From NCBI GenBank assembly GCA_038897115.1, contig JAWAXC010000008.1, forward strand, positions 1-42,134: a stretch of 42,134 nucleotides of DNA, written 5' to 3'. The notes below the pieces were generated by a model, which saw nothing but the letters and a program-made list of their open reading frames with translations, was not told the DNA's origin and did no database searches. Both the position numbers and the translations under genes were made by a program. Shown here in pieces: positions 1,693 through 42,134 of the stretch. Position 1 is the stretch's first letter, and each line of letters starts with the position of its first letter. The stretch comes from Sulfolobales archaeon. GTDB lineage: Archaea > Thermoproteota > Thermoprotei_A > Sulfolobales > AG1.

Positions 1693-2358
1693 AAAACCAC
1701 CAAATATCCCTTACCCGGATACATTGAATAAATCTAAGCTTATAACAACCCTAAACATCCAATGTGATCCAACACTTCTCAGAAACTCTAAGCTATTATG
1801 CAAAGCCCATAACAAAATTTCACCCACCCAACCAGGGGATCAAAAATATATAGTAAATAATATAAATAACTGCTATGTATTACCAATAAAAATTATAGAG
1901 AAAAATACTGTGAAACCCTACTAATAATACCGATCTATAATTTAAGATCAAAGAAGTATTATTACTATAAAAGCTTATAACAACCCTTTTCATTAACTAT
2001 ATATCGGGAGGGGGCAACAGACAGGCGCCCCCTAACCCACAAACCATATCTCTAAGCCTTGAGGGTAACCTCAGGGCTTAGGGGTATGGGTAGTGGGCTA
2101 GGGACAATATGTCTGTTGCCCCCTCCCACCTTTTTATTTCAATATTAGAATTCTCATGTTTCCTAGACTTTGTTTCTAGCTACTTAATGGTGTGGATGAA
2201 AAGAGTGTGTCTTGATTTAGATGCTTTAATTAATATGAATCATGTTTTATCTTGATCCTCTATGCATATGCTACTGTGATTTCACCTATTATATATCCCT
2301 AGCCATATGTTTTCATATGTATGTATATATCATCTCATCTATGGTATAAGTATTTGGT
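1693..2358. other. Intergenic region with a repeated promoter-like sequence and an RNA candidate
   Basis: No convincing gene is seen; the 66-codon frame at 1724-1924 is AT-rich and resembles nothing. The region holds the palindromic RNA candidate at 2006-2127 and a 17-base direct repeat, AAGCTTATAACAACCCT, at 1736-1752 and 1971-1987. Both copies contain a TATA-box-like CTTATAA. The stretch 2130-2340 is AT-rich and probably carries the pstS promoter. Confidence 0.5.
2003..2138 (+). ncRNA. Candidate structured RNA: 17-bp perfect terminal stem with nested stems
   Basis: GGGAGGGGGCAACAGAC (2006-2022) is exactly complementary to 2111-2127. Inside it, CCCTAACCCAC (2030-2040) pairs with GTGGGCTAGGG (2093-2103) with one mismatch. 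CTAAGCCTTGAGG (2052-2064) pairs with 2069-2081 around a GTAA loop, with one G-U pair on the plus strand. A TATA-like box (CTTATAA, 1974-1980) lies about 26-30 bases before the first stem and a T-run (CTTTTTATTT) follows the last. Promoter, stem and T-run together suggest an independent short transcript. It matches no RNA family I can name; a palindromic mobile element (MITE) is the main alternative. Confidence 0.5.
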
Positions 2359-2364
2359 GTGTGT

Positions 2365-3609
2365 ATGAATAAAGTTCTTTTGATCTCGGTTGTAGTTATA
2401 GCTTTGGTGTTATTGGGTGTGATAGCTTATATATATTTCCAGGGCTCTAAGCCGTCCTACGCTCCAACTACTATACAGCATATAACAAGTACGCCTTTAC
2501 AGACGCAGAGCTCTTCCCAGTCTTCTCAGCTGGTGTTTAGCTATGGTGATATCACTGTTAAGGCGATTCTTCCAAGCAGGCCTATAACTATTACTGGTGG
2601 AGGCTCTACCTTTGTTAATGTACAGATGCAGTCCTGGATCCAGAAGTTCAGATCTGTGTCCAGCGGCCTTGTAACGGTTAATTACCAACCCATTGGTAGC
2701 GGGGCTGGTGAGGCGAAGTGGTTTGATCGAAGCCTTGATTTTGGAGCATCTGATGTCCCTATATCCAATGTAACATATCAGAGACTAGTAGCCTCTGGAT
2801 CTGATTTCATCCAGATACCAGTAATAGCGGGCTCAGTAGCGATCATATATAACCTCCCAGAGTGGGATGAGAACCGCTGTGGAGCCCTCAGGCTAAGTGG
2901 TGAGGTGCTGGCCAACATATATCTTGGCAAGATAATATACTGGGATGATGATAGGATAAAAGAGCTTCAGATAGAGGGGTGCAGAGCCCTACTACCCCAC
3001 GAACCTATAAGGGCGATCCATAGGAGCGATGGAAGCGGTACAACAGCCCTCTTCACCCTCTACCTCTCAGACGTGTCTGAGGAGTGGAGAACCAGGATAG
3101 GCTATGGATACACAGTCGAATGGCCTAGAGACGCTCTGGGATATGGTGAGGGAGGTAGGGGTAGTGACGGTGTGTCTGCAAAGGTCAAGGGCACGGCATA
3201 CTCAATAGGATATGTTGAATACGCCTATGCAATAGTGAATAAGCTTCCAACTGCAGCTCTAAAGAATAGAGATGGCAACTTTGTAAAGCCCACCCCCGAA
3301 ACCGTCTCTGAGGCTCTTAAGAGAGGGGCTAGTAACCTGCCACCTCCGAATGCATATTGGGGAGATATTCCGAAGAGCTTCATCAACAGGGAGGGGCAGA
3401 ATACATATCCAATTGCTGGGCTATCATATATATTTATATATAAGGATATTACCAAAGATCCCGATATGGCGAAAGCGGTCTCAGCGTTTCTGAAGTGGAT
3501 CCTGACCGAGGGTCAGAAGCCGGAGAACCTGGTAGAGGGCTACCTACCCCTCCCACCAGAGCTAGCGAAGATAGCTGTTAAATATGTGGAGCAAGGCTTA
3601 GGAATATAG
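2365..3609 (+). CDS. pstS: Phosphate ABC transporter, phosphate-binding protein PstS
   Basis: This is the extracytoplasmic receptor that hands phosphate to PstCA. One N-terminal membrane segment (MNKVLLISVVVIALVLLGVI) is followed by a Ser/Thr/Gln-rich linker, as in other crenarchaeal binding proteins tethered to the membrane. The PstS fold follows: ITGGGSTFVNVQMQSW, QPIGSGAGEAKW, DFGASDVPIS, ANIYLGKIIYWDD, IHRSDGSGTTALF and a C-terminal IGYVEYAYA. The phosphate-binding serines and the SDGSGTT loop are present. An in-frame GTG lies 6 bases upstream (2359); ATG 2365 gives a better signal sequence. It heads the operon pstS-pstC-pstA-pstB-phoU, with pstC starting 3 bases after its stop. Confidence 0.95.
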   Translation: MNKVLLISVVVIALVLLGVIAYIYFQGSKPSYAPTTIQHITSTPLQTQSSSQSSQLVFSYGDITVKAILPSRPITITGGGSTFVNVQMQSWIQKFRSVSSGLVTVNYQPIGSGAGEAKWFDRSLDFGASDVPISNVTYQRLVASGSDFIQIPVIAGSVAIIYNLPEWDENRCGALRLSGEVLANIYLGKIIYWDDDRIKELQIEGCRALLPHEPIRAIHRSDGSGTTALFTLYLSDVSEEWRTRIGYGYTVEWPRDALGYGEGGRGSDGVSAKVKGTAYSIGYVEYAYAIVNKLPTAALKNRDGNFVKPTPETVSEALKRGASNLPPPNAYWGDIPKSFINREGQNTYPIAGLSYIFIYKDITKDPDMAKAVSAFLKWILTEGQKPENLVEGYLPLPPELAKIAVKYVEQGLGI

Positions 3610-6176: not shown

Positions 6177-6793
6177 GGCCTATAGATCAGCATATATCTA
6201 GGCTCGAATCAAGGCTTAGAGAGCTCTCAGCAATCTCAGAGAAGATCGTTGAGGACGTGGTTACACTAAAGGCATCGCCAGAGGTGATAAGGGGGAGGGT
6301 TGATGAGGTTAAGAGGAGAAGGCTTGAGATACACAGCAGTATTATAGAGATAATAGCTAGGTTCCAACCAACAGCATCAGATCTCAGGGGCTTGATAGCG
6401 TCTCTAGAGATATCCTACGGGCTATATAGATTCGCTAGATATGCTCTAGACATATCTACAATATTATCAACAGTGCTTAGAGGATCTAGCGAGGTATGCG
6501 AGTTAAAAGGGTCATCGGAGGTTGCTGGATATGTTAGGGAGATGGTGGTTGCTGGATATGTTAGGGAGATGGTTAGGAGGAGTATAGAGGCGTTTCTAAA
6601 GAGGGATAAAGATTTGGCGAGGAGTGTTATAGAGATGGATAGATCTGTTGATGAGAAGCTATTCCAAACCCTCTCTAGAGCATCCAGATCTACGGATCTA
6701 TGCTCAACCCTGGATCTGCTGATCCTAATGTACCTGGAGAGGATAGCGGATCACAGTGTGTATATAGCTCAGGAGACTGTTGAGATGTTATAG
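6173..6793 (+). CDS. phoU: PhoU-family phosphate regulator with internal 9-residue duplication
   Basis: Last gene of the pst operon. It starts at TTG overlapping the pstB stop and encodes about 206 residues of mostly helical sequence, the size and position of PhoU, which modulates PstSCAB activity in bacteria. The N-terminal helices ([19 protein letters not shown]) and the C-terminal [19 protein letters not shown] carry the usual PhoU helix with the RIADH metal-site motif. A 27-base tandem duplication at 6521-6574 repeats VAGYVREMV twice, adding exactly nine residues to a helix. The family assignment rests on the RIADHS motif and context; overall sequence is divergent. Confidence 0.8.
6521..6574 (+). 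repeat. 27-bp perfect tandem duplication inside phoU
   Basis: Two adjacent copies (6521-6547 and 6548-6574), each beginning GTTGCTGGATATGTTAGG, keep the frame and duplicate VAGYVREMV. The copies are essentially identical, so the event looks recent. A helix lengthened by nine residues (about 2.5 turns) could alter the PhoU bundle. Confidence 0.9.
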
Positions 6794-41650: not shown

Positions 41651-41673
41651 AGGGTTACATAAAATAGTTGGCA

Positions 41674-41697
41674 AACCTCGACTTTAAAGGCGGGGTT
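41674..41697 (+). repeat. IS200/IS605-type hairpin upstream of tnpB (copy d)
   Basis: AACCTCG and CGGGGTT form a 7-base stem (one G-U pair) around ACTTTAAAGG. It matches the hairpin class of copies a-c but lies on the plus strand, ahead of tnpB. TTTTTAAG (41701-41708) follows at once as a TATA-like box. Confidence 0.6.
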
Positions 41698-41730
41698 AGA
41701 TTTTTAAGTTTTTGTTTCGATATATGCTCT

Positions 41731-41814
41731 GGGCTTCCGAGATGGTGGGTCAATCTACTAGGATGAGGGGCGGGGGCCGATTATCCCCCGCAATACCCAC
41801 CATCTCGGAGGCCC
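41731..41814 (+). promoter_or_regulatory. Strong stem-loop leader of tnpB
   Basis: 41731-41750 pairs with 41795-41814 over 20 bases with a single G-U pair; the loop carries a second perfect 7-base stem, GCGGGGG (41770-41776) with CCCCCGC (41785-41791). A TATA-like TTTTTAAG lies about 26 bases before the stem. The ATG at 41742 is buried in it. The structure may control tnpB translation, be an element end, or be a separate RNA. Confidence 0.6.
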
Positions 41815-41825
41815 CCTCCTCGAAT

Positions 41826-42134
41826 GTGAGAACCAACGTTATCAGACTCCTACCGAGCGGTAGCCAGCATAGGAAGTTGCTGAAGCTAGCTGATGTCTGC
41901 GCCAGGTTGTATAATGAGCTTAACTACGAGAGGAGACAACAGTTCTTTAGAAACCAGCGGGTGGACTTCGAGGGAACCTGGAGGAGGTACTATAAGAAGT
42001 ATAAAAATGTTCTAGGTGTTAACGCCCAGGCCGTTATTCAGAAGAATAACGAGGCCTGGAACTCGTTCTTCTCACAGCTTAAGGCTATGAAGGAGGGGAG
42101 GCTACCTCCCTTCATTAAGAAGGTCAGCCCGCCT
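41826..42134 (+). CDS. tnpB: IS200/IS605-family TnpB RNA-guided nuclease, N-terminal part (3' end outside window)
   Basis: Open to the window end. From GTG 41826 it reads RTNVIRLLPSGSQHRKLLKL, ADVCARLYNELNYERRQQFF, YYKKYKNVLGVNAQAVIQKN and AWNSFFSQLKAMKEGRLPPF, the conserved N-terminal domain of OrfB/TnpB. An ATG at 41742 would add 28 residues lying inside a strong hairpin, so the GTG is preferred. TnpB is a transposon-encoded, omega-RNA-guided DNA nuclease. No tnpA is seen upstream, so the element looks like a tnpB-only type. The RuvC residues are beyond the window. Confidence 0.88.
   Translation, partial: MRTNVIRLLPSGSQHRKLLKLADVCARLYNELNYERRQQFFRNQRVDFEGTWRRYYKKYKNVLGVNAQAVIQKNNEAWNSFFSQLKAMKEGRLPPFIKKVSPP

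Follow-up and report, generated by a model that had tools for sequence, protein, structure and literature searches.

The locus and its neighbours

The window analysed here is a contig (C8) of 42,134 nucleotides from the genome of a Sulfolobales archaeon, referred to below as G000 and assembled into 188 contigs of 2.44 Mb in total. Near the beginning of the window a palindromic element of 122 bases lies on the plus strand at 2006-2127, between a broken alpha-amylase-type gene and pstS. The amylase-type gene covers 445-1692 on the minus strand and is left as three open frames (445-735, 1004-1351 and 1414-1692), with the frame lost between the pieces; two of these pieces were scanned, and only 1004-1351 matched a Pfam family. 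The GC content of the element is 58% and that of its flanks is 29%, a contrast that RNA genes of hyperthermophiles usually show.

The opposite end of the window (41660-42134) carries the start of a TnpB element that is cut by the contig end. It has a short end-type hairpin (the CCTCGACTTTAAAGGCGGGG region) and a second hairpin of 20 bp at 41731-41814 (z -5.4), which falls in the 5' portion of the reading frame. G000 has seven long copies of this TnpB element, together with several lone copies of its first 36-49 bases elsewhere in the genome, and a full copy (L148) matches OrfB_IS605 and Cas12f1-like_TNB. A kinship between the 122-base element and the TnpB hairpin at 41731-41814 was considered and dropped, since by eye the similarity is confined to a short G-rich stretch.

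Fold of the element

The hairpin is real and far beyond chance. The predicted RNA fold of 2003-2138 has an energy of -98.5 kcal/mol, compared with a mean of -47.5 (sd 4.0) for shuffled sequences, which gives a z score of -12.8 with none of 200 shuffles as good. The opposite strand of the same interval reaches -90.2 kcal/mol (z -10.4). The element is the lowest in energy among 1401 sampled windows of 122 nt across the 42 kb, and its arms (59 nt, 80% complementary) are the longest among the 17 inverted repeats listed in the window.

Folding, which the sequence-only reading had proposed as a check, agrees with most of what that reading saw, i.e. a perfect terminal stem that encloses two more long stems, with almost all of the 122 bases paired. 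There are 49 pairs within 2006-2127 covering 98 of the 122 bases, both inner stems are found, and the terminal stem is indeed perfect; its length is 18 bp and not 17 bp. From base to apex, helix 1 pairs 2006-2023 with 2110-2127 over 18 bp, and it is followed by a 6x6 internal loop (loop 1) in which GGCGCC at 2024-2029 faces ACAATA at 2104-2109. Helix 2 has 11 positions, including one A.C mismatch, and pairs 2030-2040 with 2093-2103. A 3x3 internal loop (loop 2), AAA at 2041-2043 facing GTA at 2090-2092, leads to helix 3 of 21 bp, whose arms at 2044-2064 and 2069-2089 are closed by a four-base apical loop at 2065-2068.

A homologue with conserved pairing

One homologue was found, in G001, which is the sole other genome of the genus among those searched. 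It occupies 219 nt on the reverse strand of L016 (1509-1727) and has the same base with a larger head: the basal 9 bp of helix 3 are kept, and the apex is exchanged for a head with two hairpins that is 97 nt longer. The strand of the G001 form that matches the plus strand of the window folds with a z score of -14.3 and is more stable than its opposite, and hence the more stable strand is the same in both forms.

The basal core of the two forms is identical at 81 of 94 letters. The identity is 33 of 36 letters in helix 1, 12 of 12 in loop 1, 15 of 22 in helix 2, 5 of 6 in loop 2 and 16 of 18 in the base of helix 3. As a scale, the PstS proteins of the two genomes share 266 of 415 residues, and the third codon positions of these identical residues agree in 127 of the 266.

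The pairing is conserved through most of these differences. The 38 basal pairs have taken 12 substitutions, 10 of which are transitions, and 37 of the 38 pairs are formed in each genome. Four pairs changed on both sides, and three of these changes are compensatory (A-U to G-C once and C-G to U-A twice). In helix 1, 16 of the 18 pairs are unchanged, one shows a compensatory change and one went from A-U to G.U in G001; in helix 2, two pairs changed in a compensatory way, the A.C of our element is A-U in G001, and one pair is broken in G001. Compensatory changes in homologues had been named beforehand as support for an RNA and a missing transcript together with a lack of conserved pairing in relatives as evidence against one, so the three compensatory double changes and the retained pairs argue for the RNA, on comparative evidence that consists of two sequences from one genus.

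We compared these numbers with several controls. When 12 random substitutions are placed on the sequence of the element, at least 37 pairs survive with P 0.0002; the corresponding probabilities are 0.002 for four double changes and 0.007 for three compensations. Column shuffles, a weak control with two sequences, reached three double changes in 66 of 500 trials and the observed share of paired positions in 19 of 500. Sliding the partners by 1-3 columns lowers the pairing from 91% to 30-53% and the double changes to 0.

It is possible that such compensatory changes also come from arm-to-arm correction of quasi-palindromes in DNA. The element might then act as DNA, as a cruciform or a protein-binding site (e.g. 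for replication, segregation or a regulator), its arms being kept alike by selection or by such correction, with no RNA product. The nearly invariant sequence of helix 1, the strong folding on both strands, the occurrence of one palindrome per genome and the retention of a long palindrome in G001 though the letters of its head differ would all fit this explanation. Against it, the same strand is energetically favoured in both genomes, and the non-Watson-Crick pairs outside the replaced head show a small excess of G.U (4) over A.C (2) when read on the plus strand. The sequences around the hairpin bear on the same question.

Upstream region, candidate promoter and T-run

About 180 nt upstream of the hairpin are homologous between the two genomes. 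By local alignment the shared stretch in the window runs from about 1834 up to the hairpin (1834-2005, plus strand); it is AT-rich (29% GC over 1700-2005), and it may serve as the promoter and control region. The 200 upstream bases align with a local score of 34, which was reached by 1 of 1000 dinucleotide shuffles and by none of 719 GC-matched segments of G001 and 1205 of G000. The similarity of the 60 upstream bases was equalled or bettered by 5 of 3000 GC-matched segments of G001 and, among 1000 dinucleotide shuffles, by 2. Taken alone, positions -180 to -61 are less distinctive, with 35 of 1000 shuffles as good. Downstream of the element, 153 of 1000 shuffles are as good over 60 bases and 19 of 500 over 15 bases, and the T-run alone is common to both genomes.

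The upstream region contains a TATA-like box, TTATAA, at 1975-1980, i.e. at -31 to -26 from G2006, which we take to be the usual spacing of an archaeal TATA box. G001 has CATATAC at -31 to -25, in register with TTATAA on the alignment. The run TTTTT at 2131-2135 follows the last helix and is a likely end of transcription; its counterpart in G001 is GCCTATTTTTA. A TATA box of its own at the right spacing and a T-run after the element had both been pointed out from the window, and both recur in the second genome. Further upstream lie two copies of a TAWTACC motif, TATTACC at 1878-1884 (-128; at -125 in G001) and TAATACC at 1925-1931 (-81; at -79 in G001), which may be operators.

A palindrome that works only as DNA gives no reason to expect TATA-like boxes in register near -26 and T-runs on the same side in both genomes, and with the strand preference described above these make that explanation unlikely. 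The conserved unit, as judged from the two sequences, is the upstream region, the hairpin and the T-run together. This layout is that of a small RNA gene and not that of a miniature inverted-repeat transposable element (MITE), since the homology between copies of a MITE should stop at the inverted ends.

Genomic places and the pst operon

The element occupies different places in the two genomes. In G001 it is flanked by a radical-SAM gene and by a tetrapyrrole-methylase gene, and it is divergent from the latter. The element is absent from the orthologous pstS locus of G001 and from the related methylase locus of G000, and its orientation relative to the neighbouring genes differs between the two. 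Different places with shared upstream DNA fit a genome rearrangement since the species split; alternatively, the whole unit of upstream DNA and hairpin may have been relocated.

The sequence-only reading had placed the element before the pst operon. It does lie upstream of pstS in the window, where it ends about 230 nt before the gene on the same strand and is followed by the T-run, an arrangement that could be expected of a leader, attenuator or terminator acting in cis on the pst operon. However, the association with pst is accidental, since the G001 element sits elsewhere, and the different neighbours and orientation there indicate that the element does not serve pst in cis. The stretches before pstS in G001, G002, G004 and G005 contain no comparable hairpin, and the contig of G003 ends just upstream of pstS and is uninformative. 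In addition, TATA-like sequences closer to pstS (2321-2328 and 2344-2350) suggest that this gene has a promoter of its own. A role in cis for pst is thus extremely unlikely.

Copy number and distribution

The element is single-copy in G000. A BLAST search of this genome with E values up to 10 returned the element on its two strands and, beyond that, only matches of no more than 27 bases. Among the six genomes of the family, including G000, the homologue is found in G001 only, none being detected in the other four, and homologues are known in 2 of the 214 genomes of the order.

Searches with each form of the element gave the same two genomes. BLAST with our element against 147 genomes of the order gave matches in four, of which G000 and G001 are true; the matches in G026 and G090 are short and by eye without the palindrome, and these genomes were not counted as members. 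When the G001 element was the BLAST query, five of 229 genomes of the class matched, the same two of them being true; the three other genomes match over 23-30 nt only and failed the check for the arm pattern. An arm pattern of the element was sought in the 214 genomes with three mismatches allowed, and 30 genomes matched; only G000 and G001 match without mismatches, and the other 28, which have 2-3 mismatches, were not inspected singly. An inner pattern matched four of the 214 genomes, and the two extra matches do not fold as such an element.

A covariance search in relatives had also been suggested for this locus. We ran it with a model made from the two sequences with the head trimmed, over the 214 genomes of the order and six of the family, and it found only our own copy. 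Since even the known homologue in G001, with a head longer by 97 nt, escaped it, the negatives of the model say little, and the distribution given here is based on BLAST and patterns.

Viruses and plasmids gave no clear further members. A viral collection was searched with four patterns. Here 38 records with pattern matches have no paired arms, except for L055, which has a partner with three mismatches at 438 bases; the 5' arm pattern alone was sought in 22 further records of the collection and not found, and two longer patterns matched none of its records. Phage and plasmid records gave none, save for one chance match of 32 bases between a plasmid and the G001 query. A scan of genome contigs for the exact 18-mer of our own form, a query that could not match the G001 form, returned one unrelated Streptomyces record.

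These counts bear directly on a MITE or another non-autonomous mobile element with terminal inverted repeats. Such an element would account for the perfect 18-bp inverted ends, the size (which is in range) and the different location in each species. The sequence-only reading had expected it to show many near-identical copies with target duplications. The element has one copy in each of the two genomes and no target duplication (the flanks differ and there is no abutting direct repeat), and no transposon with matching ends was found among the places inspected. Besides the four ends of the two elements there are 16 places with a similar 18-mer, and none of the 11 inspected has a partner end within 600 bases. 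The homology of about 180 nt past one end is also at odds with a MITE. We consider a mobile element very unlikely, and the preference for an RNA over a MITE that was first proposed from the window alone is supported by the comparison.

Comparison with known RNAs

The earlier remark that the element resembles no RNA family holds for Rfam, which gave no matches in the window at its gathering thresholds. The matches below threshold are mostly to eukaryotic microRNA models, which reward any long hairpin, and were dismissed. We found no description of such an element in the open-licence literature, including PMC2864571, and this is not proof of its absence in print.

A hairpin scan covered 431 kb of G000 and 400 kb of G001 and required perfect inverted arms of 13 bp or more. 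In G000 the other long rod rich in GC that it picked out is the SRP RNA (RF01857, 190 bits), at 6358-6667 on the minus strand of L176 (contig C7), with a perfect helix of 30 bp. Its detection elsewhere in the genome by the same scan is a positive control, and it means that the element is something other than the SRP RNA. Further inverted repeats were listed in each of the two genomes, and none resembles the element.

Several other repeats of G000 are recorded here for themselves. L185 (contig C17) has repeats GATGATCTACTATAGAATTGAGAG at 1767-1929, presumably of the CRISPR repeat type of Sulfolobales, with one copy inverted relative to the others, which is either an array junction or an assembly fault; it also has a perfect palindrome of 64 bases at 6521-6584, with 32-bp arms and no spacer. 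L189 (contig C86) has a MITE-like stretch of 134 bases at 3123-3256, with perfect inverted ends of 20 bp (TGTTAGGAAATCCCCTAACA).

The element shares features with four known systems. Like the archaeal SRP (7S) RNA it is single-copy, GC-rich and rod-like, has a very long helix and stands alone in an AT-rich gap; however, the SRP RNA is about 310 nt long versus 122 nt, and the element has no match to the RF01857 model. Archaeal H/ACA guide RNAs, like the element, form a hairpin whose symmetrical internal loop lies beneath a helix of about 10 bp, but the element differs by its 18-bp lower stem; by eye there is no ACA after the stem (ACC in our element and GCC in G001) and no GA/AG tandem of a kink-turn in its loop 2. 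Bacterial 6S RNA is a long rod with an internal bubble; it is a bacterial family, however, and the element has no Rfam match and a bubble of only 6x6, and binding of the polymerase is not implied. MITEs, REP and PATE-type palindromic mobile elements have inverted ends and fold as hairpins, and the element differs from them by its single copy, the lack of a duplication and the homology beyond its end.

A candidate gene for a standalone structured RNA

The element is probably a gene, present once per genome, for a standalone structured noncoding RNA, as judged from its fold and the comparison of the two genomes. With the TATA-like box at 1975-1980 as its promoter, the transcript would begin near G2006 and stop at the T-run after 2130, which predicts an RNA of about 122-130 nt, and of about 220-230 nt in G001. 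This RNA would fold into a rod made of the 18-bp terminal helix, the 6x6 loop, the second helix, the 3x3 loop and the third helix with its species-variable head. Loop 1 is unchanged, and the terminal helix is more conserved in sequence than pairing alone would require. Contact with a protein is the likeliest source of this constraint, and we infer that the two may form a surface on which a protein docks, although the identity of loop 1 by itself is not striking beside that of helix 1. The head would be a filler of variable length, and the paired TAWTACC motifs could be the site of a regulator.

What such an RNA would do is a more tentative matter. The role that we find likeliest, though with low confidence, is that of a scaffold for a ribonucleoprotein acting in trans. 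By analogy it might work as a scaffold in the manner of the SRP RNA or as a decoy in the manner of 6S RNA, both being meant as ways of working and not as membership of these families. A bolder and rather improbable proposal is that the element represents a novel class of RNA particles, long and rod-like and confined, as sampled, to one archaeal genus, in which the 18-bp base of nearly fixed sequence and the invariant 6x6 loop would bind a protein and the head could lengthen by about 100 nt between species; it would then be a possible decoy or regulator of a nucleic-acid enzyme, expressed from its own promoter with paired TAWTACC sites. The limited spread over the order suggests that any function would not be widely needed.

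To our knowledge, descriptions of standalone structured RNAs that belong to no known family are few in this archaeal group. The element offers one with comparative support and a delimited gene with a candidate promoter. If it is transcribed, it would provide a handle on a ribonucleoprotein of unassigned role, and it would be an example of a single-copy structured RNA that one genus has kept and its relatives lack.
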